Shown: in pieces, positions 2,231 to 57,623 of the stretch
Position numbering within the stretch: the stretch's first letter is position 1
Layout of the letters: the number at the start of each line of letters is the position of its first letter
Source: Pelagomonas calceolata
Lineage: Eukaryota > Sar > Pelagophyceae > Pelagomonadales > Pelagomonadaceae
Direction of reading: 5' to 3'
Assembly: GCA_918797485.1 (NCBI GenBank)
Contig: CAKKNE010000002.1
Coordinates: forward strand, 3,252,501-3,316,500
Length of the DNA: 64,000 nt
The notes under the pieces: model-generated
Told to the model about the DNA's origin: nothing
The model's database searches: none
The model's input: only the letters and a program-made list of their open reading frames with translations
Made by a program: the position numbers and the translations under genes

Positions 2231-2256
2231 GCTAGCGGCATGTAAGACACTAGCAA
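2231..2256 (+). promoter_or_regulatory. Shared dyad motif, copy 1
   Basis: Left arm GCTAGCG, core TGTAAGACA, right arm CTAGCAA, 26 bp in all. It sits in the 277-bp spacer between the start of the SCYL-like gene (2016, minus strand) and the 3' end of the exonuclease fusion, so only one promoter can own it. I see nothing else in the spacer. A tRNA A-box-like stretch near 2090 has no matching B-box. Confidence 0.75.
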
Positions 2257-2293
2257 ATTTGCAAACCACGAGCCACGAGCCACAAAACAGACC

Positions 2294-5200
2294 TTAGAAC
2301 AACACCGCACGGCCACCGAGACAAGCGACGAGCGCGTCCGCGTCGACGACGAGCGATCGCCCGACCTCGCCGCACCCGAGCGCGATCGTCCGGCCCGCGA
2401 GGGATCGCGCGACGCGGACGTCTGCCGCGCGGTGCGCGCCTATGGGCCCGAGCGCTCCGCGGGGAAGGCCGAAGAGCCCCACGAGCTCGGCCGCGGGCGC
2501 CAGCGTTTCGTCCGGCGCGAGAGAGAGGCGTTCGCCCGCCGGCAAGACGGCCAGGCGCCGCTCGCCGTTATAGAGCAGCGCCAGCGTCTTGCAGCGGACG
2601 ACGACCGAGAGGTCGATGTCGCCGTCGCTCAACACGCGGAAGTCACCACTAAACGACGCGGCGAGCGCGGCGACGTCGTCCGGCCCGAGCGCCGCCGGAA
2701 ACGGGTACGTCGCGGCGACCTGCAGCAGGACGTGCGCGTCGAGGGCGGCGTACGCCCGCTGCGCTGGCGTGAGCGGCCGCCGGCCCCAGTCCGAGCGCTG
2801 CTCCGCCTTGTCGAGGCGCGTACCGAGGCGCGTCGCACACACGGCCGCGAGGCCCGCCTCGCTGCGCTTGAGGTCGCGGATGCGCCAGGTGGCCGGGTCC
2901 GGCGCGGCGGGCGCCGCGCGCCGCAGCCGAGTCGCGTCCGACGCGAAGCCGTAGGCCAGCACGGCACGCGCACCGGCGACGGCGGCGTAGACGATGGCCG
3001 CCGCGTCGCCGTCGAGCGCCGCCAGATCAACCAGGTAAACTGCTTGCGGCGTCGCGACCTGCAGGAGCGTCGCCGCGGCGGTCCCGGGCGGCCATTCCGC
3101 GTCGACCGCGACCACTGGCTCGCATTCTAGCGCCGCGGCCATCGCCGCGGCGCCCTGGGCGTCGGTGACGTCTTGGACAGCGATATCTGGAAGCGTGAGA
3201 CACTCGCCGTCGGCCGCGGACCGCGGGCACCCGAGCACCAAAGCATGCTCCCGCGGCACGAGCGGCGTCGCGACGTCCTCGTCGGCCGCGTCGCCGAAGA
3301 GGCGCCTCCGGAGCCGCCGCGCCGCGCGCCGGTGGCCGAGGTCCTCCGCCGCGGCGACCAAGGCCGCCGCGGCCACGGCATCGACGGCCACGGCGTCGTC
3401 TTTGGCGTCTTCACCGACCAAGGGCGCCTCGCAGAGCCGCGCTGCGGCCTCCATCGCGTCGTTCTTCGCGAGCGCGACGCACGCGTCCGCGACGATCGTC
3501 GACGAGAGCGCCGGCGGCCGGCCGACGAGCGCCACGTAGCGCGCCGCGAGCTCGAGGCGCCGCGGCGAGTCCGCGAGGCGCCGCGGCGAGTCCGCGCCTA
3601 GAGCCTCCCGGACGACGTCCGCCGCGCACGGGAACTCGGCGCCGAAGCGCCTGGCCGCTTCGACGGCGAGCGCCAGGTCGGGTCCGTTTCGCCCTTCTAC
3701 GAGCGCCCGCCGCAGCAGCGCGCCGGCCGGCGCCGCGGCACTCGGGTCGGGGTCTGCCGCGGCCAGGATCGCGGCGCCGATTTTCGCGCCGAGGGAGCGA
3801 GGCTTCACGACCGCGAGCGCGCCGAGCGCCTCGACGACGAGCGCCGCGCGGCCCTGGCTCGTGTCGCGCGACGCGGTCAAGACGGCGCGGGCGCGCTCGG
3901 CTAGAAGCGCCGAGCCGACGCGGCGCCCATTTCGCGCGTGTTCGTGGGGCCGGCCCTCCAGGCGCTTGACCAGCTGCGCGCCGGTCTCGACGGCGCCGTC
4001 GTCCACCAATAGAGCGTCGTCATCTAGGCAAACGGCCTCGGGCGCGTCGGACGCGTCCCGGAACGCGCCGCGCACGCGCAGGCCCGCGACGGACGGGTGC
4101 GCCGGCGACGGGAAGCCGCCGACCTCGACGACGCGGCCGTCCGCATCCAATGAAGGCGGCTTGCGCTTGTGCTTCTTCCACGTCGTCGCGCCCCGGAGCA
4201 GCGGCTCCGGGTCCCACTCGTCCGGCAGGAGAAAGCCCCGCGACGTCTCGTAGAGCGCGTCTTCATCAAACGGCCGGAGCGAGGCGACCATGATCGGCGT
4301 CGCCGGGCAGCGCTCCGCGAGGCGCGCGAGCTCCGCTGCCAGATGCGCGGCGGCCACGGCGCGCAGCGGCTCCGGCGCGCCGACGAGCTCGCAGGCCGGC
4401 AGGAGGTAGCCGTTTTCTGTTTTCGGCAGGCGGCACGGCGCCAACCAGTGGCTCTTGGGCAGGATGACGAAGTGCGTCGTGTCTGCCGGCACCGCGGCGC
4501 GAACACCGCATATGTCCCGCGCCACCCAGCCCTTCGCGTGGTCTCCACTGAGGACGCTCGACTCGGGCGCCGCGCGGTCGTAGAAGACGAAGCCCCGGAG
4601 CGCGCTGTGCGCGCGCAGGTCGAGGCAGCGGTCGTCCTGCTCGACCTTGGCGAGCGTGCGCGTCGCCCACTTCCTCACGTCGGCCTCGGCCGAGAGGCGC
4701 AGCTTGCGCGCCGACGTCGCGACGCGCGCGTCGAGGTTCTCGTGCAGGAAGGGGCCGACGTACCGCGCGGCGGCGCCGGCCGGCAGCGCCCCTTGCGGCG
4801 GCGCGACGTAGACGAAGAACTTGATGGAGAGCTCCCAGTGTAACAAACAGCGGCGGCCCGGCGCCGGCGCCGTGCCGGGCGGGTCGCAGCCGAGGGACGC
4901 GCGCACGGCTTCATCCGTGGGCGCGCAGCAGAAGACGTACTTCAGGCTCCCGACGACGCCGCGCTGGCCCCGCCGCAGCTGCTGGCCGCACCGCAGTTGC
5001 GTCGTGCGGAGCGCCGGGCACCGCTCGATCCAGAACTCGACGAGCGACTGCGCGTAGAAGCCCAGCCGCGTCGACCGCCGCGACGGCGCCGCGAGGTAGG
5101 CCTCGAGCTCGCTCGGGTCCTCGTCGAGCCGCGCGAGCCAGCCCTGCGACGCGCCTACGATCGAAGCGCCGACCGCGTCGTGTAATGGACGGGCCGCGCT

Positions 5201-5353: not shown

Positions 5354-5461
5354 CGCTGCTCAAGACCTCTGCATTGCTGTGACATTTCTCGGTTATCTAT
5401 GCCGGCACCTGCAACCACTCTGGTACCTCTCTCAGGTGAAGGAGGCGCCGGCGCAAAACGA

Positions 5462-5487
5462 GCTAGCGCACTGTAAGACACTAGAAA
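5462..5487 (+). promoter_or_regulatory. Shared dyad motif, copy 2
   Basis: GCTAGCG then CACTGTAAGACA and CTAGAAA; the last arm differs by one base from the usual CTAGCAA. It lies 108 bp upstream of the exonuclease fusion start (5353, minus) and just past the 3' end of the ankyrin-RS gene, so it again marks a one-sided promoter. Confidence 0.75.
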
Positions 5488-5512
5488 ATGAGGGAGCATT
5501 ACCCGCCTAGGC

Positions 5513-6898: not shown

Positions 6899-7098
6899 TG
6901 TCGGTTGCGTCCCGCGGCTGCTGCGATTCTAGCTCCCTAGGCGAGGCTTGGGCTGGCTTCGCTCTTCCAGGGCCCCGCGGTTTAGTGAAGCACGAGGCGC
7001 TGCGAGCGGAACGGCTTCGAGGAGTGATAGAACCGAAGCGGGGCAAGCTGCTGTAGCTGTTAGACCTCCGGGCGGCGGCGAGGGTGCCCGGCCGCTTT

Positions 7099-7120
7099 CT
7101 AGTGCCTTTACAGACGCTAG
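7099..7120 (-). promoter_or_regulatory. Degenerate copy of the shared dyad motif
   Basis: CTAGTG, CCTTTACAG and CGCTAG keep both CTAG ends and the 22-bp spacing of the regular copies, but the core has changed. It lies in the 330-bp divergent spacer between the ankyrin-RS gene (start 6898) and the XRCC4-like candidate (start 7229), 108 bp from the latter. No TATA-like sequence is obvious nearby. Confidence 0.5.
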
Positions 7121-7228
7121 GAATCCGGCCGCGCAAAGTGCCGGGGCACCGCTCGCGTGCGTGACCGCGCGTGATCCCTTTTGACCACAGCAGTGCTGCC
7201 TCACCGCCCCGCACGGCACAGAGGAGAA

Positions 7229-8233: not shown

Positions 8234-8245
8234 AGATCTAAGTTG

Positions 8246-12645: not shown

Positions 12646-12677
<32 letters not shown>

Positions 12678-14386: not shown

Positions 14387-14412
14387 GCTAGCGCACTGTA
14401 AGACACTAGCAA
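14387..14412 (+). promoter_or_regulatory. Shared dyad motif, copy 3
   Basis: GCTAGCG, CACTGTAAGACA, CTAGCAA; a perfect-looking copy. It sits almost exactly midway in the 386-bp divergent spacer: 179 bp from the SufS start and 181 bp from the small secretory protein start. It is the only notable element in that spacer. Confidence 0.8.
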
Positions 14413-15144: not shown

Positions 15145-15570
15145 CTACGACGCGGCCGCGGCGGCCGCGGCCCGCTTGGCCTCCTTGGCGGCCTTCTTGC
15201 GCGCGCGGCGCTCCTTCTCCGCGCGGATGCGGCGGTTGCGCTCGCGCTTCGCCTCCTTGGCGCGGCGGCGCGCCTCGGCCTCGACGTCGGCTTGCGAGGG
15301 CGCCGCTTGGGCCGCGGCGGCCGCGACGCGCCGGCGGAAGTCCGCGAGCGCCGCGCCGGCCGCGGGCGCCGGCGCCGGGTCGCCGGGCAGGTCGAGGGCC
15401 ACGTCGCGTAATCCCGACACGGCGCGGAGCTTAGGCCGCGACGACGCTCGAAGACGCGGAACGGATTGCGCGGCGCGTGTTTGGCGGCGCGCACCCGACC
15501 ACAGCGGGGATTGAGAAAGCCCTGCGAGGCGCGCGAGCCGCGCTCCGCGCCCGCGAAGCGCCGCCGCCAC
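15145..15570 (-). CDS. Small basic protein, possibly mitochondrial
   Basis: 141 residues. The N-terminus MAAALRGRGARLARLAGLS is Arg/Ala/Leu-rich with no acidic residue, as in a mitochondrial presequence. The last 60 residues are an Ala/Lys/Arg/Glu helix (RRRAKEAKRERNRRIRAEKE) ending in poly-Ala. The composition would fit a small mitoribosomal protein, but I recognise no specific family. Overlapping frames are open here because of composition, so the call depends on the presequence-like start and on its position in tandem with the methyltransferase gene. Confidence 0.45.
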   Translation of the reverse strand: MAAALRGRGARLARLAGLSQSPLWSGARRQTRAAQSVPRLRASSRPKLRAVSGLRDVALDLPGDPAPAPAAGAALADFRRRVAAAAAQAAPSQADVEAEARRRAKEAKRERNRRIRAEKERRARKKAAKEAKRAAAAAAAS

Positions 15571-15660
15571 CGCCGCCGACGCCGCCCCTTTACGGCGAGG
15601 ACGAGCTTGATTAAGTAAAGCTTAGACAATCACCAACATATCTCACAACAACGTATCTTA

Positions 15661-16736: not shown

Positions 16737-16761
16737 GCTAGCGGCAGTAAGACACTAGACA
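16737..16761 (+). promoter_or_regulatory. Shared dyad motif, copy 4
   Basis: GCTAGCG, GCAGTAAGACA, CTAGACA: one base shorter than most copies. It is in the 285-bp divergent spacer, 110 bp from the methyltransferase ORF start (152 bp from its second ATG) and 150 bp from the alpha-kinase start. Confidence 0.75.
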
Positions 16762-20674: not shown

Positions 20675-20746
20675 AAAAATTGAACGTTTCCCAGCCACTA
20701 AGCTGTGTTTGAGCGGTTTGCGACCGTTTTTGGCAGCTTGCCCGAA

Positions 20747-20770
20747 TGCTAGTGTCTTACTGCCGCTAGC
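20747..20770 (-). promoter_or_regulatory. Shared dyad motif, copy 5
   Basis: On the minus strand: GCTAGCG, GCAGTAAGACA, CTAGCA. It is in the divergent spacer between TTL (167 bp from 20579) and the arylsulfatase (187 bp from 20958). Confidence 0.8.
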
Positions 20771-20957: not shown

Positions 20958-22909
20958 ATGAAGCGCGGCACGCGCCTGCTCGTGGGGCTCCTCGGCCTCA
21001 TCACGGCCCTGCAGCTGTTCCACTCCTACGTCACCTTTACGCGGCACGCGGCGGAGACCGCGGACGCGCACCCGGCCGAGCTGCGCCCCAAGCCGCCGGG
21101 CTGGCGCGAACGCTTGCCCAGTGAGAATGCGCCGCCGCTCGAACGTGAAGAACAACCAGTCAGGGACGCTCGAGGAACAAAACCGCACATCGTCTACCTG
21201 CTCGCGGACGACCTGGGCTGGCACGGCGTCGGCTGGCGGAACCCGGAAGTGCAGACCCCGAATTTGGATAGACTCGCGACGAGGGAAGGCTTGCGACTCA
21301 GCCAGCACTATACCTATAGGACGTGCTCGCCGAGCCGCTCGGCCTTGCTCAGTGGGCGACTCGCGCATCACGTCAATCAAGCGAATCCGAATCACCGCCA
21401 CCCGGGCGGCACGATCGCGGCGTCCCGCGATTCACGCCATCGACGCGCGTCGTCTCCAGGAATGATGGAATGAGGTTCCGCGCAGGCGGCGTCGACCTGG
21501 GCATGACGCTATTACCGCAAGCGCTGAAGGAGCGGGGCTATGCTACACACATGCTCGGCAAGTGGCACTTAGGCTTGGGGACCTCGGACCTGGTCCCGAC
21601 GAAGCGCGGCTTCGACACCTGGCTGGGGTTCTTCGCGGGCGCAGAGGACCACTGGAATCATAGAAGGACGGAATTACGGCGGAGTCTTATCGATTTGTGG
21701 TTCGACGACGGTCGGGGCGGCGGGCCCGCTACACAATTCGCGCGGAAGGATCAGTACGGCGACGAGCTCTTCACGGCGCGCTTCGAGAAATTAATCAAGG
21801 AGCACCCTCCCCAGAAACCGTTGTTCGTGTACTACGCGTACCAGGTGCCCCACGAGCCGCTGCAGTCGCCGCGCAAGTTCCTGGCGAAGTACACTGAATT
21901 CCGAGATATCAAGGGAGATAATGATTGGCACTACGTGGAACGGAACGGTCTAGGATTGTCCAGGCAAGAAGCTCCGAAAAGGCGGGCGCAATACCACGCC
22001 ATGGTGTCGTACCTCGACCATTCTGTTGGTAGGGTCGAGCGCGCCCTGAAAAGTAGACAAATGTGGGATTCCTCCCTGATAGTGTTCGCGACGGACAACG
22101 GCGGCGCGACGGGCCACGACGCCGACGTCGGGAACAACTGGCCGTTGAGGGGCGCCAAGTACGCAGATTACGAGGGCGGCGTGCGCGGCGTCTGCTTCGT
22201 GACGGGTGGTGTTTTACCTGTTGATAGGTGGGGCCTGGACCTTACGAACCGACGACATAGGGTGTCGATCGCGGACTGGTACGCCACTTTTGTGGAATTA
22301 GCCGGGGGCGTTCTTGAAGATAGACGCGCGGCCAAAGAACGCCTGCCTCCCTTGGACTCGCGGAGTTTATGGCCGACGATTTCGAAGGGGGAGGACGGGC
22401 CCCGCTCGCAAGAACTGCCGCTGACGGTGCCCGCGCGCGACGCGATGCCGGGAAGTGGAGGTGGCCTCATCCAGGGCCGCCACAAGCTCCTCATAGGCAA
22501 CCAGAAGTCGGCGGTGCTCAATGGGCCTACGTACCCAAATGGCACAATACCAAAGCCGCTCGTCGAGTTCTGCAAGCGCGGCTGCCTCTACGATCTGGAC
22601 GAGGATCCGGGCGAGGTCCGCGACTTGGCTTCAGAAAGGAGCGACGTGCTCGAGGTCATGTTGACGCGCTTCCGCGAGTTGCAGAAAACGGCCTACGCGA
22701 CGCCGCGCTACGCCGTCTGGCCGGACGAAGCGGCGATGGCGAGACATATCGCCGTCGTCGAGCGCGACTACGCGGGCTTCTGGGGCCCCTATACCTCTCT
22801 CTCTGCTGTTGAGAGGGCGGGGTTCGTCGATGGGAACTTCCAGCCGTGGGATAAGCACCACCGGCCCGATCTGGTGGAGGCGCAAAAGAAGCAGTTGTTG
22901 TCTAAATAA
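20958..22909 (+). CDS. Arylsulfatase (ARSB-like), type II membrane anchor, one probable short intron
   Basis: MKRGTRLLVGLLGLITALQL is an N-terminal signal anchor. Sulfatase blocks: IVYLLADDLGWHGVGW (metal Asp pair), CSPSRSALLSGR (the Cys that becomes formylglycine), THMLGKWHLG, RRGFDTWLGFFAGAEDHW-like text, and FATDNGGATGHDADVGNNWPLRG. The first 145 codons and the last 475 are in different frames. No GT-AG intron joins them. Two non-GT choices do: a GC-AG intron 21397-21485 (89 nt, ending in CGCGCAG like the other introns here) or a GA-AG intron 21389-21459 (71 nt, giving a more family-like spacing). A plain frameshift remains possible. The enzyme would remove sulfate esters, for example from sulfated polysaccharide, in the secretory pathway or outside the cell. 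Confidence 0.85.
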
Positions 22910-23253: not shown

Positions 23254-23498
23254 CTTGTGCTACGGCAAGCGTACCAGACCACTGCTATAATTGCTGCGCG
23301 TCACGTGTCGCAAACGTCGCGTTTACGCAGCGCTGCAGCAAAGCGATGGCTTTTGACTGTGCTGGCTACGCAACAGATTGCGAGAAACGCAGCAGTGCGA
23401 GGAGTAACGCAGCGAGCAGTAAGCCGCGAGCAACGAGCTTCCAGTGATTCGCACTCAGTGAGCCAATCTCGTCGGCTTGACGCAAAACGTAGGCATTA

Positions 23499-23522
23499 TT
23501 AGCGCAACACACATACTAGGAA
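23499..23522 (+). promoter_or_regulatory. Probable degenerate copy of the shared dyad motif
   Basis: TTAGCGCAACACACATACTAG then GAA: the ends and ACA core words match copy 11 (GTTAGCG ... ACACACTAG), but about one third of positions differ. It lies in the 568-bp divergent spacer between HisE and bL33. The rest of that spacer shows Ala/Gln-codon-like GC repeats but no gene. Confidence 0.35.
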
Positions 23523-23712
23523 TTGCTCGACAGCCGTCGTCTGGAGCAGCAGCCATATCTGAGGCGTGACCGCCTCGTAGCGATCACAGCGATCGCAGCA
23601 ATCGGCTTGCGCCAGCTCTGCCTCCCGCGGTTGCCTGCGCCAAAGCTCTCACGAGGCTGCTGGTGCACCTGGCGCCAGCATCGCGCGGCCGCATACGCCG
23701 TCGCCGCGCCGC

Positions 23713-23723
23713 ATATATATATA
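23713..23723 (+). promoter_or_regulatory. TATA-like run upstream of bL33
   Basis: An 11-bp AT alternation in otherwise GC-rich sequence, 99 bp before the bL33 ATG. The position suits a core promoter; no transcript data support it. Confidence 0.35.
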
Positions 23724-23821
23724 GACAGGGCGTAGCTCCCGAGCTGTGCTCACTCTTTGGACGCCCGCACGCAAATTTCTCTCCGTCGCCGCCGCGACGC
23801 CCGCGACACAGCGGCGGCGCC

Positions 23822-25055: not shown

Positions 25056-25080
25056 GCTAGCGGTAGTAAGACACTAGCAA
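25056..25080 (+). promoter_or_regulatory. Shared dyad motif, copy 6
   Basis: GCTAGCG, GTAGTAAGACA, CTAGCAA. It ends only 59 bp before the ATG of the Gly/His-rich gene, the shortest distance found, and 133 bp from the start of the Ser/Pro-rich gene on the other strand. Confidence 0.78.
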
Positions 25081-25139
25081 GAAAAATTCTCCTTCCACTC
25101 TGCCCCAGGACGAGAAGGCAGCCCAAACACGACGAAATC

Positions 25140-25404
25140 ATGGGCAAAGGCGCCCACGGCGGACACCGGGGCGGCCACCGGGGCCACCATGGGTTCCACG
25201 GCCGCGGCCACGGCGGCGGGCCCTTCGGCCCCCTGGGGCTGCTCTGCGAGATGATCTGCCTCTGTGGCCGCCCGCGCGGCACGAATCATTCGAAGCACTC
25301 GCGTCGGCAGCGCCACCACCGGCGGATGCAAACGTTCGCCGCAGACGAGAGCATCGATCGAGCGTCGATTCCCACGCAGGCGGCCTCTGCGCGACGCTCT
25401 TCGG

Positions 25405-25441
<37 letters not shown>

Positions 25442-25504
25442 TACGGCCAGGCGCCGGTCGCGCAGAACCCCATGTACCAGGCGCCGCCGCCCTACAACGG
25501 CTAG
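25140..25504 (+). CDS. Small Gly/His-rich, Cys-rich protein with PPPY end; two exons
   Basis: The single-frame reading ends in Arg-rich nonsense, but splicing 25140-25263 to 25380-25504 gives a sensible 82-residue protein. The intron is GT-AG, 116 nt. The parts are a Gly/His run (HGGHRGGHRGHHGFHGRGHG), a hydrophobic Cys core (GLLCEMICLCGLCATLFG, with the junction inside it), a proline run encoded by a CCG microsatellite, and YGQAPVAQNPMYQ then APPPYNG. The Cys core could be a palmitoylated or membrane-inserting segment. PPPY is a WW-domain ligand motif, and a WW protein is encoded at 51.4 kb, though a link is speculative. Confidence 0.65.
25264..25379 (+). other. Spliceosomal intron, GT-AG, 116 nt
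   Basis: GTGGCCGCCC at the donor and CCCACGCAG at the acceptor, phase 1. Removing it restores a Pro-rich C-terminal exon with an in-frame TAG. Confidence 0.65.
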
Positions 25505-25705
25505 GGCGCGACGACGCTCCGGGGCGCGCGTAAGCGAGGCGTCGTACTAGTGGAGAGTCGTAACACGAAGGCTTAGCTTCGAAAGCGGCGGCGGCGCGGG
25601 AGACGACGGCGCGACGAATGTCGTCGGCGGGCCGGGCCAGGTTGGGGTTGTTGTTGGGATCGTAATCGTGGGGGCGGAACTAGAACACACAGAGCCGTCG
25701 CCGGC

Positions 25706-29356: not shown

Positions 29357-29760
29357 TTTTTTAGTGGAGTAATTTGTACTCGCACTACTACTAGTATCCG
29401 CCTCGATAGCGTAAAATAATCGAGGCCATGGGTTTCCTAGTGTGTCGATACGCTAGCTCGCTAGGTCTTGCGGCTCGCCAAAATACACCAGCGATTGAAG
29501 GTGCCTTCTACTGTCCATATAGTACATCATATACACTCCAGCCCAGTTTTCATACAAGTTCGACGGAACCGGAGCCGACGGCCCGCGCTCGGAGGGCGGG
29601 AGAAGAATTCTACTAGACAACTCTCGCGTTTATGTTCGTTTCCTTCCGTTTGTTGGTGGTAGAGTCCATCCAACCCGCATCAGCGCCCACTGAGCTATTT
29701 TAGATCTTCCGTTAGAGCCGCGCGGATCGGCGACTTCGGTCCCCCGCGTTTTCATGAAAA

Positions 29761-30144
29761 TGGGCAAAAGACCTAGACCTGCGAGTATCAGCGACGACAC
29801 TATCCGGATGGACCATAACGCCGTTGTTCTATTCACGATCGACCGACTTGCCCGTTCTCCGCGGACGACGGTGCGTACGCGGGGCACTGGAAAGGCCCCA
29901 GACCCGTGAGTTGTAAAATAAATTTGCGTTTTAGGCGCTTCTGTTATGGGACGGGCCAGCTAACCGGGCTGAACACGCACTACATTCGATTAATTGTACC
30001 GTAGGCTCCCGGTGGCACGTCAGTATCCCGACCCCAACATCGATCGAATTTGGGCAAATTACTTGGACCTGCGACCATCAGCGCGTGTATCATCACCATG
30101 GACCATGACGCGATCATTTGTTGCATGAACGACCGACTTGCGCG
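29761..30144 (+). repeat. Diverged duplicate pair, two 94-bp units 290 bp apart
   Basis: Units 29761-29854 and 30051-30144 both begin TGGGCAAA and end GACCGACTTG plus four bases, have identical length and share GGACCTGCGA-like, ATCAGCG and ATGGACCAT blocks. Similarity fades out upstream. Read on the plus strand both encode MDH(N/D)A and DRLAR, so they may be remnants of a duplicated short coding segment. Confidence 0.7.
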
Positions 30145-30620
30145 GGGTCCAGATCAAGATGTTCACGTCCCGAGCGTAGGCAGCCAAAAGTACCCTTCTC
30201 GTGGTGTAGATGTCATATACTCGTAATTGACTATCGGTGGGGTAGTATGGGGTCCGACGAGAGCGCTACGGCGACTACTGGAGGGCCTCGGGTAATTGAC
30301 GTTTTTGACGGGAACGGGGCGCCATCGAGTGAGATGCCTGGCCAAGAGAATTGCCATATGTATATACCGAGGGAAGCCGCCACGCATGCGGCGTAGGCGA
30401 TTGCACATGTCTAGTAGCGATCCTAAAACGACCTCCGGGAGACCTCAGGACCACGAATTGACAGGATTCAGCCGGCGCGGCCGCCATGGCGGCGTCGTCA
30501 ATTTCGCGAATTAAAAAAATTATTTTTTTCGGCCCCCAGTAAGTGTCCCATTGATCTCTTTGGACCAGTAGGGAACTGAAGGCCACTCAAACAGCTGCAT
30601 GCCGCGTGCTTCAATGCGTC

Positions 30621-30644
30621 CTAGTGGTCTTACACGACGCTAGC
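30621..30644 (-). promoter_or_regulatory. Shared dyad motif, copy 7 (variant)
   Basis: Plus-strand reading CTAGTGGTCTTAC then ACGACGCTAGC; one extra G and some drift relative to consensus. It is 166 bp upstream of the carrier ATG, and the gene-poor island lies on the other side, so it serves one promoter. Confidence 0.65.
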
Positions 30645-30810
30645 TAACTTTTGGAGCACGCGCTTTATTGAGAGCCAAGCTCCACTTGGCGAGAGCCTAC
30701 CAGTTGCAGCACGTCGCGAGACGTTTCGCAGTGATATTTGGCGCGGGCAACAGAATTACTGGAACTGACACGGACGCACAGCCGCTGAAGTCGCCCTACT
30801 CTCAACAAGC

Positions 30811-35457: not shown

Positions 35458-36569
35458 ATGCCGCGGGTGTGGAAGCCCGCGGCGGACGATCAGCACATCT
35501 TCGACGCCCTGCCAATGCCGGAGGGGGACGTCTTCCTCAGCGACGACGAGCTCCTCATGGAGATGGACGGCGTGGCGACGCGCGCCGCGCTCAACGCGGC
35601 GCTCGGTCCCACCGCGAGGACAAGGGTGACCTTTGATGCCGAGGGTCGGTACTGGCGGAAGTCGTACGAAATTGATAAGGAGCCGCGGTGCATCTACTTC
35701 TTGCCAGCCGTGCAGAACCCGCGCGCGCGCTCGAGGAGTACCCGATGGCGTCGAGCCGCCGTTCCCGCGACCAGAGGAGAAGTTCCAGTGCAAGAGGAAG
35801 CAGCCGCCCCGAGCGCCGCGCAAGCCGTCGAAGACGACGGCGCGGTCCGGCGAGAAGCGCCCGACGTCCGCGCGGCCTAGGATGTACACGACGCCCGGCG
35901 AGAAGGTCACGCGCGTGGATCCGGTTGATGATGCTGAGCTGCTCGTGCCGGACGAAGACGTGGTCGACCTCGACGAAGTCGCGCCAGTACCACGGCCCGT
36001 GACACGACGAGATTTAATGGCCCTAGAGCAGCGCGCCGAAGACGCGCTCGCGGCGTGCGACCGCGCGGAAGCCGCGCGCGCCGCGGCCGTCGCGGCCCAC
36101 GCGGAGCTACGCGACAGACAGGACGCAGTCTTCGCGAGGAGCGCCACCGACTCGGCAAGACTTATGCTTCTCTCTCTGGACCGCGAGGCGAACGCGCTCT
36201 CCGCGGAGAGAGCGGCACGACGGCGCGACGTTGATCGCCTTAGAGCCAAATTTTCACAAGAGAAAAGAACGCATGGAAAAAGACTGTGAGAGCGCGCGGC
36301 GGCGCGGCTAGACGAGGAGCGGCGGCGATTGGAGGAGGGTTTGGACAAACACGCGCGAGTTGCAGCGGCAACTCGACGCGCAAACTGAAGTCGCCGATTT
36401 GAAAAAGAAACAAAGCCAGCTCAACCTCGAGCTTTATGGCCTTCGACGGCTTCGAGGCGCCTGGCTGGGTTCTCGTGTTGCGTATTTACCGGAGGAGCCG
36501 CCGCCGGATTCGGACTTCGAAGGCGTCGTTGTGGCCCGTGGTCCACGCCGTCGGCGACTTTCTCAGTAG
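35458..36569 (+). pseudogene. Interrupted coding region, coiled-coil protein, unrecognised
   Basis: Begins with a protein-like start (MPRVWKPAADDQHIFDALPM, LSDDELLMEMDG) and continues as Pro/Lys-rich, acidic (DEDVVDLDEVAPVPRP) and then coiled-coil text (LMALEQRAEDALAACDRAEA). It is broken in a few places, unlike every confident gene around it. No family recognised. It could be a decaying host gene, a gene with introns I cannot place, or the left part of an inserted element that includes the next block. Confidence 0.45.
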
Positions 36570-38750
36570 AATTTGTGGTGGTACGCTCAAAAGAAAGCAA
36601 CAGAAGTGTCTGCGTCTCCTAGCCGACTACGCGTGGTGTCACACACTCGCGGGCGGGGAGATTGGCCTCGTGCGAGCTCACTTTGCGTGCGCGGAGTACC
36701 GGCGCCTCCAGGCATTTTGCCTCTCCAGCCGAACTACTGAAGACCATGGACGTGGAGATGACGGGGAACTACGCTGCGAGCGAGGCCATGCGGGCCAGAG
36801 AGCGGGCGGCTCTCGTTGCGCTCGGGAGACGTTGGGCAAGCACGTGATGCTGTTATTCCCCACGAAGTTCGCGCTCCAGGAAACAGCCAAGCTGGTAGAG
36901 AGAGTTGCTGATGGCCACAAGGTTTCGGTTACGAAACGTCGCGGGCGACGGCACTTACGAGGCGGTCGGCATTGCGACGGGCGCGGTCCTCGACGTCATC
37001 ATCGGAAAGCAGCGTGGGCTCCTTGAGACTGGACGCAGTCCCGCGGATCCGCGGAGGATCAGAGGCACGCAAGACGGCAGCAACATCACGAAAAGCGACG
37101 ACTTTACGATGCAAGGGATCCACGTCAACGACAGCCGCGCGGTCGACCCGATCACTGGCAAGCCCACCGACTTCCAGTCGCCTGATCGGGTTCATATTGC
37201 GCGTTAGCCGTTGGCCACGAGAGCCATGCCCTGTACGAAGCTTTAGACGACGTGACGGATCACTTCAGTACAGCGGCGACGGCGCAAACCGATGGTGTCT
37301 ACCAGTCAGAGGCAGAGGGCCGCGCCGTTCACGTTGATTACGTCTGCTCGGGCGACATGGCCAACCTCCAGACGGTGTCGAAGAAGGGCTTCGCGACTGG
37401 GACGTCGGAGAACGCGCGGCCGTGTTATTGTTGCGCGCAGACCAACAGGCAGATGACGACGCCCAAGGTAGTTGACGACCTTTGCGACGTCTGCAGAGCA
37501 GCGGGTCGGTTAGTGTGCTACCACGCGGAGATGTCGACGCCGGCTGCCGTAGACGAGTGGCGCGCTACGGCTGCCGCTGCGCTCACGGAGCTCAGAGGGA
37601 GCTGCCCCAGCCTACCGCTACATGCGCGAGGCCAAGACTTTAAGTGCGGCGCAGCTGCGCGAGCTCGCCGCGGAGGCTGGGCTCGATGCGGGCGGCACCT
37701 CGGCCCACTTGCACGCGCGCTTCGCTGCTTATTGCGGTCAGCATTGCTTGGAATTGGAAAACCCCAACCAAAACGGGTTTTACGCAAAGTTCGACTGTCG
37801 AACTGCGACCCCAGCACAAAAAACGCAATTTTTTCGCTGGTCGTGAACGATTGTCTTGTTGATTTCGGCCTGGCGGTGACGGGCAACCTCGGTTCGCGCG
37901 TCGAAGCTGACGACGCGCCTGAAATTGGTTGACCAATATTACGAACTTCAAGCGCAATTAGAACACGCCACGCCAAATTCTGATGCGCTCATCTCCCTGG
38001 TCGAGCATATGGTCCCGTGCGTCTTGCATTTAGAAAACCGGACGCGCGCGCGTTGCGGCTCATCCTCAACAATTTTTTGGATCTACGAGAAGAGCGTGGC
38101 CCTGGCGAAGCTGCGGCCGCTGGCAAATTGATTAGAACGAAAGGCTTCGGCTGCCCGAACGGCCGCGAGGGCAAGTGGACGGCGCCGCTCTCCAAGGACG
38201 AAGATTCCGTCGAAGATCAATCCGTTGAATTGCGGCCGCGCCCGGAAGATCTTTGCTAACGTCGGCACGGGCTCATCGGGCGTGCTTCCCGGACGACGCC
38301 AAGCGGCGGGTCGTCCTCGACCTCGTCCGCGGCTACGGGTTCGATGGTGCTATATCGAAAACGAGAAGATCTCACGGACGTCGAGATTGCCAAAGCCGAC
38401 GACCTCGCCCAGGAGACCGCCATCGGCTACTGACGGCTTTCACGGCGAAGGCCTCACGAACTAAGCACATGATCGGCGGGCCACATTATCTGGCTTATTT
38501 GCGAAAGTACCGGAACTTGGCGCCGCGCTCGAACCAGGGGCGAGGCGTGAACCGCTTGATCGGCGGCGCTTCCTCACGCGGACGCAGCGCGGCGGCCACT
38601 GCGGCCACGAGGCGACGCGGGCGACGCGCGTCGCCGCGCTGGGCAAGTGGATGCAGCGGCGGATGATGTGGCTCACAGGCCTGGTCAAGCCCGGCGAGCT
38701 CAAGGTCATCGGCTGGAAGCAGAAGCGCGTGATAGACTGGTAAATTGTGA
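36570..38750 (+). pseudogene. Broken coding block, possible old mobile or virus-like element
   Basis: About 2.2 kb of plus-strand protein-like segments in several frames, with roughly half a dozen breaks. Recognisable texture includes a Cys-rich zinc-type cluster (CYCCAQTNRQ, then CDVCRAAGRLVCYHAEM), a SAP-like helix pair (LSAAQLRELAAEAGL) and VEHMVPCVLHLENRT. Compositions are ordinary rather than Ala/Pro-rich, which argues for once-real protein. I do not recognise the family. No terminal repeats that would bound an element were found. Age cannot be dated from one copy; the number of breaks suggests it is not recent. Confidence 0.4.
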
Positions 38751-38751
38751 C

Positions 38752-40383
38752 TTACTCTTCGTAGGCTGCGACGAGTGCATGGACTTCAGACGTTGGACGC
38801 GTGAGCGTCGGCACGTCCGCGCCGGCGACCGGGTAGGCCTCCCTAAACTCGCACGACGCCGCCGTCGCCGCCGTGATAGTGTAAACGACGCCGTCGAGCT
38901 CGAACGACCATCTGCAACTCCGCGACGACCGTCGCGGAGCGGTGTCTTCGACGGGCGCGACGGGCTCGACGGCCGTCTCCGGCGGTGGCAACGGCGACGG
39001 CGCCGTCAGATTCGTCACGTTCGTGGCACCGGCCTCGGCGGGCGACTTGACCTCGAAGCGGGCGTTGAGCTTCAATTCGCCGGTGTCGACGTTGTAAGTG
39101 CACGTCACCCGCACGAGCTTGTTGAACTCGTCCAGCGTCGTCGGCACCCTCGTCTCCTTGAAGCCGCCTTTTAGGGGTACTCGTGACCGCGTCGCCGCGC
39201 CAAGATCCGGAACTCGCTCTCCAGGGCGCACCGTCATCGCCGCTAAGCGAGAACCGCTCGAAACGGTAGAACTGGAGGCGCGTCACGTCGGCGCCGCCTG
39301 GCCGCCCGCGCGCCACGACGCGCTTCGCCGTGAACTGCCGATCCACATGCCCGACGGCGGAGGTAGGCCCAGTACAACTTCGAAAAACACCGTCGTAACG
39401 GGGCCGCTCTTCTTTTTCCCGCGGAGGAGCTCGCCGACGGCATCAGCAACGGCGGCGACGCGCACGTTTAACAAGTCCCACAAGCCGCTCATCGTCGACG
39501 GCCGTCGTCGATCAGCGACGCGACGCGCGCTGGAAGCGGTCGCAGCGCCGGCGACGTACCATCAAACCACTGGTCGAGGGTGTAGACTCGCGCGAGGCCG
39601 TCGTAGGCACCACTTCTGGCCTTGTCCTGCGACACGACCCCACAGGCCCCACGACGGAGGTCACCGAGACCTCTCTAGAAGTCGACGAGAGGACGACATC
39701 GCAGGTGGACGCAGTCGACCTGTTGATGTGTTTGGGCAACGCGTCGATCTTGTAGAGCTCCAAGACCTCGATCCTGAGGACGACGAGGGCTGCAGGAAGA
39801 CGACCATGCTGCCGTCCTTGAGCAACAGCGAGTCGCCCGAGAAGATGGGTCCGACCTTCGGGGCGAAGAACGGCGTCCGTCGCGCGGCGAGGACGTCCTC
39901 GAGCGCCTCGGGAGCGCGCGCCACCGTGACGGCGGTCTCCTCCTTCTTCACGACGAGCGGTTCCGAGCCCTGCGCGAACGGCTGGACCTGCACAGTGTCG
40001 CCGACGACGGCAATGGCGGTGCCCTCGACGCGCTCGTCGTCGCAGGCGACGACGACGCTGTCCAGGGACTGCGGGGCGCGGTTTGTTATGGTCTGAAGGA
40101 CCCGCGGCCGCGCCGCGCCGTCGCCGCGCGAGCGCTTCTGGGACGACGAGGGCAGCTTTTCCCACGTCTCGCGGCGCCTCTTCAGCCCCTGTTTCTTGGG
40201 GGCGGGGTCCGGGGACGGCGGCGGCGCGCGGCGCGACCGCGCGGCGCGGGGCAGCAGCTCGGTGGGCTTTACCCAGCCGCGCGAGCGCGCCTCATCCTCG
40301 ACGTACTTCTGGAAGGTGGCCTGGTCCGGCGCGAGGCCCTCCAGGTACTTCAGCCTGCCCGGGGGCAGCGTATTTGCGGCCAT
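38752..40383 (-). pseudogene. Broken minus-strand coding region, possible chromatin-type protein
   Basis: Starts at ATG 40383 (MAANTLPPGRLKYLEGLAP) and gives a good protein for about 180 codons: a basic nuclear-type linker (GLKRRRETWEKLPSSSQKRS) and then VGPIFSGDSLLLKDGSMVVF, which vaguely recalls a BAH-type domain. Later segments of similar quality lie in other frames down to 38752 (RVTCTYNVDTGELKLNARFE; CRWSFELDGVVYTITAAT). The coding text is therefore interrupted several times. Whether this is one decayed gene or part of the adjoining element is undecided. Confidence 0.4.
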
Positions 40384-42678: not shown

Positions 42679-42704
42679 TTGCTAGTGTCTTACAGGGCGC
42701 TAGA
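42679..42704 (-). promoter_or_regulatory. Shared dyad motif, copy 8
   Basis: Plus-strand TTGCTAG, TGTCTTACA, GGGCGCTAGAC. It is 178 bp from the transporter start and 280 bp from the PDZ gene start, in a 484-bp divergent spacer that also has a palindrome built from two motif cores. Confidence 0.78.
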
Positions 42705-42759: not shown

Positions 42760-42984
42760 CATTTTTACGTGAAAGTCGCCGCGCTCTCCGGCGCTTGCGT
42801 TCACGAGTTTGCTGGAAGCAAAAGGCCTTTTCACCAGCCGACCCAGCGTCGCCTGAGCACTGAGATTGACCTACGTAACCAGCATTCCTCATTCCTCTAA
42901 CTTTCCTCCGCGAAAATCGCGTCCAAACCTCGACTTTCGAGACCTGCCTCGAAACTTGCCTCTCCAGCCAGAGCGCGAGACACA

Positions 42985-43530
42985 ATGGCGCGCACACCCA
43001 GCGAGGACCTCCACCCGACCCCAGAAGACGCCCGCTCGCCCGAGGACGCGCGCTCCCCGGAGGGCTCGCAGACGCCGACGACGTTCGACGTGCTCCTCGA
43101 CGACCTCAGCCGCATCACCGTCGACGAGCGCGGCACGGTGACGGCCGTCGCCGCGGATTTAATAAGGCAAGTGCGGCCCGGCGACCGCGTCGCGGGCGTT
43201 AACCAGGGGAACCGGCCGCTCGACGTCGCCCTGCTCGCGCGGCGACTCGTCGCCGTGAGCGAGGGCCGCTGCGTCCTCACCATAGAGCGCGACGACCGCT
43301 CCGAGCCGCAGTCGCCGCGGTCGCCCTGGTCGCCCGGGAGCATGTCGCGCCAGTCGCCGACGAGCCCGCGGTCGCCGCGCTGGTCGCCGGGCACGCCGTC
43401 TCGTCGATTGCGCATGCCCGAGCCGCCGCGGCCACGGGGAGGCTTCCTCGCGCCGCAGACGACGCCGACGTCGCCCTTTACCTTCTCCTCATCACTGCGG
43501 GACAAGTTCCGCGCGAGGAGCCGGCTCTGA
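42985..43530 (+). CDS. Small PDZ-domain protein with SP-rich tail
   Basis: 181 residues. A PDZ-like core (residues about 32-95) has GTVTAVAADLIRQVRPGDRV, AGVNQGNRPLDVALLARRL and GRCVLTIERDD. It is preceded by a Glu/Asp/Pro leader with two DARSPE units and followed by a tail of repeated SPR, SPW and SPT sites suited to CDK/MAPK phosphorylation. A scaffold protein in the cytosol is the simplest reading; ligands unknown. Start chosen as the first ATG after the divergent spacer. Confidence 0.7.
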   Translation: MARTPSEDLHPTPEDARSPEDARSPEGSQTPTTFDVLLDDLSRITVDERGTVTAVAADLIRQVRPGDRVAGVNQGNRPLDVALLARRLVAVSEGRCVLTIERDDRSEPQSPRSPWSPGSMSRQSPTSPRSPRWSPGTPSRRLRMPEPPRPRGGFLAPQTTPTSPFTFSSSLRDKFRARSRL

Positions 43531-43575
43531 GACGCAACGCTCGGGACCCTTCGCAAGCCTAACTTTGGAAATCGA

Positions 43576-45423
43576 CTATTTACTCCGCTCCGTCACCGTC
43601 ATCCAGAGCCCGTTCCGCGTGTGGATCGTCGCGCCCGTGTTCGTCCCGACCTTATCGGGCGTGTCCGTCTTGCCCGCGAACTCGAAGTCGTAGTTCCGCA
43701 GGAAGCCGGCCAGCGCCACGGTGGCCTCCATCATGGCGAACTGGTCGCCGACGCACTTGCGCGCGCCGCCGCCGAACGGCATGAACGCGAAGTCGGTCGC
43801 CGTCTCCGTGGGATACAACGTGCCGATGGACCCCATCCACTTGTCCGGGTCGTAGCCCGCCCAGTTCGGCTCGTCCGGATTTTTATAGGGCTTGAGCCAC
43901 CGGTGCGGATCAAATTTATCGGGTTCGGGCCAGTACCGAGGGCTTCTATGTATAGAATAGACCGCGATAAAGACGTCCGACGCGCGCTGCATCTTCACTT
44001 CTACATCGTTATTCCTCAGATCATCGGACAAGTCCTCGGAGTCCGGCATGCGAGCCGCCGGCAGGCTGTCGTCGTCCACCGCTCTCCTTATTAACAAAGG
44101 AGGCTGGGGGTACATCCTTAAAGATTCCGCTACAGTGAGTCGTGTCAACTGCAAGGCTTCTATTTGTTCCCTAGTAGCAGGAGCCTTGCCGTCCGGCAGC
44201 ACCTTATCAAGTTCCTCTCTTAATTCAGCAAGTAACCCAGGATTCTGCGCCAACTCAAACACGCACCAAGTTAAGGCAGAAGCGGTTGTTTCATGACCAG
44301 CAATCAACATCGTCATCAAATCGTCGCGTAGTTGCGTTCCTGTCGCTTCCTCCCCGCGCTGATCGACCAAAAATCTCAGTAACGAAGGATTCTCCATGGT
44401 CTCATAATCCATGTTCTCCTGCAGGTCCTCCGTGTCCATCTCGACTCGATCTTCAAACGCGCCCGCGATGGCGTTGTTCAGCTGGTCATTGAGTAGATTC
44501 ATATTGGCCGTGAAGGCCCGCTGTCTAGGTACCAATTGCATGGCGCCGGGGATCTTCCAGTAGGGCGCGGGCGTCATGGACCGGTGCTCCGCCTCCCTTA
44601 ACGTGTCGATGGCCGCTTGGACGACCTTCGACGGCTTCAGCGTCGAATCGAACTCGTAGTTGAAGACCGCAGACCCGATGATATCCAACGCCAAAGAACC
44701 GAACCTCTCTTCCAGATCGACGGGTCCACTGGTAGTTTTGAGATCGTCGTTGAGCACGTCGACTTTAAGCGCGAACATGCTGATCATCCGCTGCAGCCAG
44801 CGCTTGTGGAACGCCGGCACGATGGCTCTTCTACGACTGGTCCAGGTGACGGGGTCCGCGGGAATCAGGCCCTTGCCCATGATATCTTCGAGGATCTCCG
44901 CCAGGACGCCCTTGTTGTAGCCTTTGTTGTTCGTGGCTAAGACATAACGTGCGAGTGACGCGTCCGACAACACTATAAAGGACTTGGGCCCAAAACATAA
45001 CTTGTAGGCCGGGCCGAACCTTCGGGCATATTCATGCAATCCCAAGTATAGCGTACCGTCGGCCAACCCACTAATGTCACCCTCGGCTAAAGGAGCACCA
45101 TCCGCCGACGGCGCGTCGCCATAAATCTGCTCGATGTTGCTCTTAAAAATCCTCATCGTGTCCCCGAGCTTGAGCTCCGTGCCCGGCTTGCCGGACTCCG
45201 TGAACGGCAGCGCCCAGAAGCCGTCCCACCACCACGGTAGACCCTCTTCGTCGTCGGACTTGGCCGTGTTCGTCGGGCCCTTGACGTTGTAGAGCATCGT
45301 GCCGTCGCCCTTCGCGTCGACCTTGTCCTCGACTTGCGATCGTAGTATGGTGGACGGCTTCGGCGCCGGGAGGACGAAGGCCGCGGCCGTCGCCGCCAGC
45401 GCGAGGAGGCGGAGCGGGGCCAT
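43576..45423 (-). CDS. Cytochrome P450, CYP97 family (carotenoid hydroxylase), plastid-directed
   Basis: 615 residues from ATG 45423, chosen because it gives MAPLRLLALAATAAAFVLPA, a signal peptide with an AFVLP plastid motif; the ORF continues to 45549. CYP97-type text: GPAYKLCFGPKSFIVLSD, KGLIPADPVTWTSRRRAIVP and FHKRWLQRMISMF. Catalytic blocks: I-helix MLIAGHETTASALTW, K-helix ESLRMYPQPPLLIRRA, PERF region DKFDPHRWL, and heme Cys loop FMPFGGGARKCVGDQFAMME. An insert of about 20 residues (DSEDLSDDLRNNDVEV) follows the K-helix region. CYP97 enzymes hydroxylate beta or epsilon rings on the way to lutein/zeaxanthin-type xanthophylls. Which ring is used here is not shown. Confidence 0.93.
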   Translation of the reverse strand: MAPLRLLALAATAAAFVLPAPKPSTILRSQVEDKVDAKGDGTMLYNVKGPTNTAKSDDEEGLPWWWDGFWALPFTESGKPGTELKLGDTMRIFKSNIEQIYGDAPSADGAPLAEGDISGLADGTLYLGLHEYARRFGPAYKLCFGPKSFIVLSDASLARYVLATNNKGYNKGVLAEILEDIMGKGLIPADPVTWTSRRRAIVPAFHKRWLQRMISMFALKVDVLNDDLKTTSGPVDLEERFGSLALDIIGSAVFNYEFDSTLKPSKVVQAAIDTLREAEHRSMTPAPYWKIPGAMQLVPRQRAFTANMNLLNDQLNNAIAGAFEDRVEMDTEDLQENMDYETMENPSLLRFLVDQRGEEATGTQLRDDLMTMLIAGHETTASALTWCVFELAQNPGLLAELREELDKVLPDGKAPATREQIEALQLTRLTVAESLRMYPQPPLLIRRAVDDDSLPAARMPDSEDLSDDLRNNDVEVKMQRASDVFIAVYSIHRSPRYWPEPDKFDPHRWLKPYKNPDEPNWAGYDPDKWMGSIGTLYPTETATDFAFMPFGGGARKCVGDQFAMMEATVALAGFLRNYDFEFAGKTDTPDKVGTNTGATIHTRNGLWMTVTERSK

Positions 45424-45690: not shown

Positions 45691-45715
45691 TTGCTAGTGT
45701 CTCAAGGCCGCTAGC
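45691..45715 (-). promoter_or_regulatory. Shared dyad motif, copy 9 (variant)
   Basis: Plus-strand TTGCTAG, TGTCTCAAG, GCCGCTAGC; both arms intact, core changed from TTAC to TCAA. It is almost central in the 557-bp divergent spacer: 267 bp from CYP97 and 265 bp from the IFT54-like gene. The rest of the spacer shows no gene. Confidence 0.72.
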
Positions 45716-49136: not shown

Positions 49137-49158
49137 GTAATCCTACTAGTAGTGTTAC

Positions 49159-50994: not shown

Positions 50995-51259
50995 TTGTGA
51001 TAGGCCCGCCGCCGCCGCGGCGCAGAGGACTACTAGGAGACGCGTCGACCGCGTCTTGCTGTGCCGCTGCCCGATGCGTGCGGCACGCAGCTGACTGCCA
51101 GCACTTGGCTGCACAGGAGCTCTTGAAATTAGTCCAGTCTTGGCACCGAAACGCAGCCGTGCAGCCGCCAGAGGCCAAAATCAGTCTGAAACCCAAATCT
51201 GCGATGCCAGATGGTGCTTTAGCAAGGCAGCGAGGCCCTTTTTAGCGCGAGGCAGTCGA

Positions 51260-51285
51260 GCTAGCGGCATGTAAGACACTAGCAA
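51260..51285 (+). promoter_or_regulatory. Shared dyad motif, copy 10
   Basis: GCTAGCG, GCATGTAAGACA, CTAGCAA: identical to copy 1 over the full 26 bp. It lies 132 bp from the WW/Tudor gene start and 265 bp from the ATPase start at 50994 (145 bp from its upstream ATG). Confidence 0.82.
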
Positions 51286-51417
51286 ACACAGCGCAGCGCG
51301 GCGCAGGAGCCACAGCAGGGACATACCAGGCTCTACCGGTCCCCACAGGCCACCCAGGCTGCCACCAGACCACACCCATACGACTCCACCAGGCAAGCCC
51401 GTCTGGGGCAGCCTACC

Positions 51418-53976: not shown

Positions 53977-53988
53977 CTATGTGTCTGT

Positions 53989-55116: not shown

Positions 55117-55323
55117 GTCTTTGCACGCGTCTTTTTATGAGCTCTCTGATCTGTGAGCGGCTTGCAGTGGCGTGCAGCTGGCAGCGAGTGGTGCAGCGTT
55201 GCAGCCGCAGCGATGGCGGTCGCTGTGCCACGCAGGCCGGTCCAGGCGTAAGATGCAGCTCTGGTACTCCCGTTGCGCACCGCGACAAACCAAAAGGACA
55301 TCGACGATTATATTAGGCACGCA

Positions 55324-55349
55324 GTTAGCGTACTGTAACACACTAGCAA
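55324..55349 (+). promoter_or_regulatory. Shared dyad motif, copy 11 (variant)
   Basis: GTTAGCG, TACTGTAACACA, CTAGCAAG. It is 207 bp from the methyltransferase fusion start and 117 bp from the RING-CH start, in a 350-bp divergent spacer. Confidence 0.72.
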
Positions 55350-55466
55350 GCTCTCAGATCGTCGGATTGCGGAGCTTTTCGCACCTCCTCTCCTCCCATA
55401 ACGCAGCCCCCGACGCGTAAGGGTGGCCCCGAGCACCGGCGGGGCAGCCCCGCCTGAGACTAGAAC

Positions 55467-56575: not shown

Positions 56576-57346
56576 GTAAATTACGAGGAACACCATGACT
56601 ATCAGCACGACGGTCAGCGCGACGATGGTCCAGAGCTGGCACGTGTCCTTCGTTTTCAATAGCTTGGAGAGCTTGCCCATGACGAAGTTCATCTTCTCGG
56701 TCGTCTCGTCGAGCTCGTCCTCCATGTCGTCGAGCATCCTAGCTTGCGCGCTCAGTTCTCCGTGGATCTCCTCGGCCATGCCGTGGATGCGGTCGACGGC
56801 GCCGTCGAGCTGCTCCAAGCCCTCGTCCTGCTCCTGGATGGTCGCCGCCACGCGCGCGTGGGACGAGTGGATGAAGGCCGTGTTCTGCATCTCGAGGTCG
56901 CCACTGGCATCGTACGCGCCCCGCTGCGACGCTAAAGCAGCTTGCTCGTCGGCCTCGATCTTCGCGCGCGCGCGCGGGCCCGCGACGGCGTCTCGAGCGG
57001 ACGCGACGTCGCGCTTGGCCTTGTCGACGAAGGCTTTGCGCTGGTTCAGCTCCGCGTCGTTGATGTGAGGGAACGCGCCACGGTCGCGTTCGACGTATTC
57101 CACTGTTAAAGCTAAATCTCTCAGCTGCGCCTCGGCGGCGCGCACCTCGCGCGCGACGGCCTTTTTGGCTTCCCGAAACCTGGGGTTCCCGTGCGTCGTG
57201 CCGCTGCCATATAATAGGGTAGTGAACGTCGCGACGCGGCCCTCGATGGACCGCAATTTCACCACCAACTCGTCCTTCACGACGTGGAAGGGGTCGCCGC
57301 CGGCCGACGCCATGAGCGGCACCGACGCGAGCGGGTCGTTGGACAT
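56570..57346 (-). CDS. Qc-SNARE, syntaxin 6/10/61-like
   Basis: 258 residues. An N-terminal three-helix-type region starts DPFHVVKDELVVKLRSIEGR, as in syntaxin 6/SYP61. The SNARE motif, about 170-230, contains IQEQDEGLEQLDGAVDRIHG with a Gln/Glu zero-layer region, then DDMEDELDETTEKMNFVMGK. The C-terminal 20 residues, LWTIVALTVVLIVMVFLVIY, form a tail anchor with one Ser behind it. It would act in trans-Golgi/endosome fusion. Its TGA and the TGA of the RING-CH gene form the palindrome TCATGA with no base between them. Confidence 0.88.
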   Translation of the reverse strand: MSNDPLASVPLMASAGGDPFHVVKDELVVKLRSIEGRVATFTTLLYGSGTTHGNPRFREAKKAVAREVRAAEAQLRDLALTVEYVERDRGAFPHINDAELNQRKAFVDKAKRDVASARDAVAGPRARAKIEADEQAALASQRGAYDASGDLEMQNTAFIHSSHARVAATIQEQDEGLEQLDGAVDRIHGMAEEIHGELSAQARMLDDMEDELDETTEKMNFVMGKLSKLLKTKDTCQLWTIVALTVVLIVMVFLVIYS

Positions 57347-57598
57347 AGACGCGCGGCCCGCGCCGCGCCTGGTGGGCGTCGCCGACGCGGTGCCTCCCGT
57401 CGCGCGCGCGCTCGCGCGGCTCCCAGCTGGCCACCACCCCTGGTGGCTGCTTGTGAAGCTCGCAGCCGCTCGTGCGAAGCCCGCGCTCGTATCCGGAGGC
57501 GACGGCTGGTTGTTAGCTCTCAGTAGACGAGCCCTGCGAGCCTGAGACGCCTGGCAATTGCCAAAAACTGCCGAGGCGTGCGCACATTTCAGCAGGAA

Positions 57599-57623
57599 CT
57601 AGCGGCTGTAAGACACTAGCAAG
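57599..57623 (+). promoter_or_regulatory. Shared dyad motif, copy 12
   Basis: CTAGCG, GCTGTAAGACA, CTAGCAAG; only the first G of the left arm is missing. It is 252 bp from the SNARE start and 174 bp from the coiled-coil gene start (57798). Confidence 0.78.

Follow-up and report, generated by a model that had tools for sequence, protein, structure and literature searches.

A bipartite element of about 26 bp in the 5' spacers of unrelated genes: a candidate general promoter site

The stretch analysed here, positions 3,252,501 to 3,316,500 of contig CAKKNE010000002.1 (64,000 nt, called the window throughout), carries genes of eukaryotic nuclear type, among them those for a cyclin, a syntaxin, TTL, a P450 and a MIP-T3/IFT54-like protein, and in the spacers between them an element of about 26 bp recurs, which consists of the block GCTAGCG, a flexible linker of 2-4 nt and the block GTAAGACACTAGCAA. 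Fifteen copies were found in total, namely the twelve that an earlier note on this DNA had listed, all present within 3 bp of the positions given there, and three further ones at 7096, 23498 and 29434. Predicted coding DNA takes up 51,789 of the 64,000 bases (81% of the window) and is overlapped by none of the fifteen, which agrees with the earlier observation that confident coding sequence is free of copies; the copy at 25056 does extend into a pair of weak open frames, scored 18.6 and 16.1 and with first ATGs further in, which were not counted as genes. The coding map was built from codon-scored open reading frames (ORFs), with their first ATGs chosen as starts. Several weak ORFs were excluded (25070-25504, 25074-25679, 42897-43592 and several small ones), ORF 15145-15621 was removed from the list of junctions and retained in the coding map, and other ORFs were merged into three multi-exon genes (20958-22909, 35458-38743 and 38752-40383).

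The 35 junctions between neighbouring predicted genes comprise 15 divergent, 6 tandem and 14 convergent ones, and of the 21 spacers containing a gene 5' end the element occupies 14 (10 of 15 divergent and 4 of 6 tandem, one of the tandem spacers having two copies). Enrichment upstream of many functionally unrelated genes, as is looked for in sites of general regulatory factors (GRFs), is seen in these 14 of 21 spacers; the genes served are those for a kinase, a class-V aminotransferase, TTL, a sulfatase, a P450, a MIP-T3/IFT54-like protein, a syntaxin and others, and no function common to them was recognised, as had been remarked before. The absence of copies from convergent spacers, which had also been reported, was confirmed (0 of 14), but this zero is weak evidence because the 14 spacers total just 1,071 bases. 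For all but one of the fifteen window copies, the nearest predicted start is at most 300 bp away. In 13 divergent spacers, nine from the window and four from the metagenome-assembled genomes (MAGs) described below, with copy 23498 left out, the element is centrally placed, with a mean offset from the middle of 0.083 of the spacer length versus 0.25 for uniform placement (0 of 20,000 draws); the P value is 0.0005 when margins of 60 bp are imposed and 0.005 with margins of 80 bp, for which the expected offset is 0.14. The distance from the element to the predicted start codons in these spacers is 89-302 bp, with a median of 181. When fragments of the element and frequent GC-rich words were set aside, the best further k-mer common to 5' spacers was ACGCAGC, which is present in 11 of 19 spacers inspected and has 22 occurrences in the window; six spacers then taken as element-free were inspected by eye, and one (23254-23821) proved to hold a degenerate copy. 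Strand alternation is strong among the predicted genes, and 12 of the 14 convergent spacers measure 8-45 bp, as against 327-731 bp for the divergent ones.

The recurrence of the element in the window far exceeds chance expectation by several measures. With at most one mismatch allowed, the core TGTAAGACA is found at 14 places, 11 of which belong to the listed copies, versus 2.8 expected, and none of 100 shuffles reached 14. A two-block consensus was matched at 17 or more of its 22 positions by 13 copies (11 of the twelve listed, 7096 and 29434) and by none in 20 order-3 Markov windows; copy 30618 scores 15/22 because of an extra base, in a range (14-16/22) where chance matches are common. The minimal form TAGCG-N8..12-ACTAG, which adds copy 23498 to those obtained by two-block scoring, occurs 15 times versus a mean of 0.1 in 30 order-4 simulations, and eight control arrangements (reversed letters, swapped order, different spacings and different block pairs) gave 0 or 1 each. 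Furthermore, the window has 13 pairs of CTAG words 16-20 bp apart, each of them belonging to a copy of the element, versus 0-2 such pairs per simulation in a set of 20. The sharing of letters among the twelve listed copies, which the earlier note had described as common to all of them, is real but looser: the core is exact in six, has one mismatch in five and more in one (45691), GCTAGCG is exact in nine and CTAGCAA in eight.

Copies were also sought outside the window. The pattern CTAGCG-N2..5-GTAAGACACTAG gave 8 matches at 7 loci among 84,980 prokaryotic species, versus about 30 exact matches expected by chance (uniform composition, from the collection size); six lay in contigs of MAGs, marine by their isolate names and, from their ERR numbers, presumably of Tara origin. 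No evidential weight was given to single matches in two MAG contigs (G002 C13 and G004 C32) and in an insect symbiont (L007), and four patterns of the element had no match in viral contigs. In a profile search of four MAGs, at least 13 matches were found in 'Spirochaeta sp. MED672' (G001, 4.0 Mb), at least 4 in G003 and at least 1 each in G002 and G004, these counts being lower bounds, with 150 of 267-578 first-look candidates per MAG scored. Twelve of the 13 matches in G001 (11 full copies and a half copy) fall within five contigs totalling 45,880 bases, in which variants of the window element recur, and the remaining match (C170) is weak. Among the five contigs, three have genes for proteins of eukaryotic type, namely an importin-5-like protein (C169), a multi-domain acetyl-CoA carboxylase (C182) and PTPA together with DHHC (C146); the enzymes of C141 are non-diagnostic, and C18 has no protein above the Pfam cut-off. 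The five contigs look eukaryotic and mis-binned into a bacterial genome. The bacterial record in the GTDB set (MED672; loci L031-L036 except L034) holds contigs of eukaryotic type, an apparent contamination.

Both neighbours are visible for 10 of the 11 full G001 copies, each of these ten being located upstream of a predicted gene, and the remaining copy (L033 7906) is near a contig end. In the MAG set as a whole, one weak ORF (score 12.2) is overlapped by copy L031 9062 and another (score 14.2) encloses L037 98; neither was treated as a gene. The G001 contigs are close to the window in dinucleotide signature, the distance averaging 84, compared with 67 and 62 within the two sets and 179-211 to four contig pieces of G002 and G004. 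Third-position GC is lower in the G001 contigs (0.70, with individual genes at 0.62-0.82) than in the window (0.82), and total GC is 56-63% and 67.2%, respectively. G003 has two more short contigs with a strong copy (C634 and C536), the signature of which is more distant from the window. The available text of the Pelagomonas genome paper (PMC9481584) puts the GC content of Aureococcus anophagefferens at 67.4% and that of Pelagomonas calceolata at 63.6%, and the values fit two pelagophytes as the sources of the window and of the G001 contigs; both could also come from one species. A separate repeat (TGTTAC.GTGC...TAGTGGGCGG-like) stands upstream of three MAG copies (L032 461, L032 2198 and L036 5363).

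Alignment of 29 copies (14 from the window and 15 from MAGs, including those of G002 and G004) showed no variation in TAGCG, in a single central A or in ACTAG, although for the MAG copies this invariance is partly selected because they were found with patterns holding parts of the same letters. The distance between the two CTAG words is 16-18 bp, with the variation lying between the blocks, and 19 bp in copy 30618, where the extra base is in the right block. Variant forms are shared between the two sources: CGACACACTAG is found in window copy 29434 and two MAG copies, TAAAGGCACTAG in 7096 and one MAG copy, and GTAACACACTAG in 55324 and one MAG copy. A model derived from the alignment missed two copies at E 10, window copy 23498 and L036 8484. 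The dyad that had been proposed for the outer GCTAG and CTAGC calls for qualification: it is largely trivial because CTAG is its own reverse complement, so that any two CTAG words resemble an inverted repeat, and the outer G (kept in 25 of 29 copies) and outer C (20 of 29) change without matching each other. A better dyad is CTAGYG...CRCTAG, the inner neighbours (CTAGCG and CACTAG) being the conserved ones.

Table 1. Copies of the element in the window; paired distances are those to the predicted starts on either side.
Positions	Strand	Spacer	Distance to predicted start	Remarks
2231..2256	+	tandem	215 bp upstream of (-) kinase gene start 2016	antisense to kinase gene
5462..5487	+	tandem	109 bp upstream of (-) gene start 5353	antisense to that gene
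7096..7121	-	divergent, 6899-7228		variant copy, TAAAGGCACTAG; new relative to the earlier list
14387..14412	+	divergent, at centre	180/182 bp	
16737..16761	+	divergent, at centre	153/151 bp	
20746..20770	-	divergent	167/188 bp	
23498..23522	+	divergent, 23254-23821		degenerate copy, TAGCGCAACACACATACTAG; two weakly supported flanking ORFs; new relative to the earlier list
25056..25080	+	tandem	155 bp upstream of predicted (-) gene start 24901	antisense
29434..29457	-	tandem, 29357-30810		variant copy, TCGACACACTAGG; 78 bp past stop of (+) zf-CW gene; new relative to the earlier list
30618..30644	-	tandem	167 bp upstream of (+) mitochondrial-carrier gene start 30811	extra base in right block; antisense
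42679..42704	-	divergent	179/281 bp	(+) neighbour a predicted ORF without Pfam match
45691..45715	-	divergent, at centre	268/266 bp	TTGAGACACTAG
51260..51285	+	divergent	266/133 bp	identical to copy 2231 over 26 bp, as stated in the earlier note
55324..55349	+	divergent	208/118 bp	GTTAGCG, GTAACAC
57598..57622	+	divergent	252/176 bp	

The tandem spacer 29357-30810 (1.45 kb), which is flanked by copies 29434 and 30618, contains no ORF above the coding-score cut-off and no Rfam match, and no hidden RNA or gene was found between the two copies; an unannotated transcript may lie inside it.

The location of the element, its central placement in divergent spacers and its recurrence in a second set of contigs support a general promoter element serving unrelated genes, which is probably bound by a general promoter factor that recognises its sequence. 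The earlier note had suggested a general promoter or initiation element; the former part of that suggestion is supported, and the latter becomes less likely in view of the strand mix and the spread of distances. Several observations weigh against a general factor-binding site. Seven of the 21 spacers with a gene 5' end lack the element (one of them only 15 bp long), copy 29434 is 1,354 bp from the next predicted start and hence not promoter-proximal, and the gene starts themselves are predictions from ORFs and codon usage, some of which may be shifted by introns. The dip in GC around window copies (0.51-0.62 within 75 bp) lends no support to the element, because it is a property of the spacers, those listed as element-free being similarly low (0.54-0.64). 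Finally, orientation in tandem spacers splits by source: all five window copies there (2231, 5462, 25056, 29434 and 30618) are antisense to the gene, and all six full MAG copies (L032 461, 2198, 4290 and 5352; L035 2685; L036 5363) are sense, as is the half copy L032 7633. This split is odd, and we have no explanation for it.

The same orientations bear on an initiator-like core promoter, in which the general transcription machinery would read the element and start at a fixed place on one strand. The proximity of 14 of the 15 window copies to a predicted start and the sense orientation of the MAG tandem copies would suit such an element, and the nearer start is the sense one in 9 of the 13 divergent spacers, where orientation as such is uninformative. 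However, the sense and antisense distances in those spacers do not differ significantly (Wilcoxon P = 0.13), the window tandem copies are antisense throughout, and the start-codon distances are widely spread, whereas the core motifs of Phytophthora infestans are, according to the available text of PMC3599244, strand-biased and commonest 50-100 nt from the start codon. An initiation element is unlikely because tandem strand is mixed (6 sense, 5 antisense) and the distances range over 89-302 bp, and it keeps some weight because the mix separates cleanly by source. Central placement in divergent spacers, together with the alternation of strands in the window (15 divergent and 14 convergent junctions versus 6 tandem), could instead point to an insulator or chromosome-architecture site, which would separate divergent genes or organise nucleosome arrays without activating transcription; the presence of the element in 4 of 6 window tandem spacers, which have no divergent pair to separate, and of four full copies along a series of genes that share one strand of a MAG contig makes this a distinctly doubtful explanation. 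The dispersal of near-identical copies over 64 kb recalls remnants of a mobile element, of which ends or short copies would be retained only between genes, and two MAG pairs have alike flanks, the neighbouring copies L032 461 and 2198 with 83% identity over 95 bp of upstream flank and another pair with 82.5% over 40 bp. The flank homology expected of a transposon end was not seen among the window copies, the 250-bp flanks of which have just six mutual matches of 14-22 bp, target-site duplications and a full-length parent not having been searched for beyond the flanks; in addition, the linker varies in length and the blocks are nearly fixed, and a mobile origin is very improbable. It is hardly credible that the element acts as RNA in the 5' leader, as a hairpin or as a splice donor, which GTAAG resembles: RNAalifold draws five pairs and GTAAG is found in most copies, but none of the five pairs has compensatory changes, the energy is -2.2 kcal/mol, the variant copies lack GTAAG, the five window tandem copies are on the strand opposite the gene and no Rfam family reaches the cut-off in the window. 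A structured RNA was rejected on account of the missing compensatory pairs and the five antisense tandem copies. The tandem orientation, mixed overall but split by source, and the central placement speak for a general factor-binding site rather than for an initiator, a transposon end or an RNA element.

For the general factor-binding site, a possible mechanism can be outlined. One module of the factor would read GCTAGCG and a second would read the nearly rigid GTAAGACACTAG(CAA) block, and the linker of 2-4 nt between the blocks suggests two DNA-binding domains or subunits that are flexibly joined. Bound in the middle of the spacer in either orientation, the factor could keep the intergenic DNA nucleosome-free, after which RNA polymerase II may begin transcription upstream of the start codons, to one side of the element or to both. 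We infer protein binding, chromatin opening and an action on transcription, all three, from sequence. More tentatively, the element could be the main signal by which a lineage of marine algae, possibly the pelagophytes, defines its promoters, that is, a long bipartite site of a lineage-specific master factor, present at about two-thirds of promoters, which sets up bidirectional promoters in a role that falls to short factor sites or TATA/initiator motifs in other lineages. Extrapolated from the density in the window (15 per 64 kb), a genome tens of megabases in size would contain many thousands of copies. Little is known of promoter architecture beyond animals, fungi, plants and a few parasites, and an element that is long, easy to recognise and present at most promoters of a GC-rich alga would offer a direct handle on the promoter-defining protein, would be of use for gene annotation and for expression vectors in picoalgae, and would offer an independent case of how lineages swap general promoter factors.

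In the open-licence literature on pelagophyte, Aureococcus, Pelagomonas and stramenopile promoters, no title among the matches listed describes such an element, and none among the matches listed for its letter strings concerns promoters or algae; one paper on diphthamide (PMC3709272) contains CTAGTGTCTTAC once. The words 'motif' and 'promoter' do not occur in the available text of the Pelagomonas genome paper (PMC9481584), and the main text of an oomycete motif catalogue (PMC3520976) has no use of CTAG at the start of a word. Comparable systems are nevertheless found among known promoter elements. The GRF sites of yeast, where Rap1 is a further factor of this class, resemble the element in the presumed role of a sequence-specific site at the promoters of many genes, and differ from it in that the element is longer (about 26 bp) and has a flexible linker; their sequences are unrelated to it. 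In the yeast case, as given in the available part of PMC2897762, proteins bound at the sites (Reb1, Abf1, Cbf1) help set nucleosome-free regions at many promoters, and the repertoire turns over between species.

The consensus of Drosophila Ohler motif 1 has ACACTA in common with the element, six letters that may be shared by chance, and to our knowledge the fly motif is short and lacks a second CTAGCG block. This motif lies near the transcription start and is bound by a dedicated protein, M1BP (available text of PMC8461331). For a stramenopile, lineage-specific promoter motifs have been described in P. infestans, in which, in the accessible sections of PMC3599244, TATA boxes were undetected, the initiator (INR) had earlier been defined as YCATTYY, INR, FPR and DPEP lie at or just downstream of the transcription start with a strand bias (5.9 to 1 for INR+FPR), and motifs without such a bias, located 75-300 nt upstream of the transcription start, were regarded as likely enhancers or proximal elements. 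Unlike INR, FPR and DPEP, the element is unbiased overall, is probably placed further upstream and is unrelated in sequence. As far as those sections describe the oomycete motifs, its pattern is closer to that of the probable enhancers or proximal elements than to that of the strand-biased core motifs, a comparison that is rough as regards distance because the distances of the element run to start codons.

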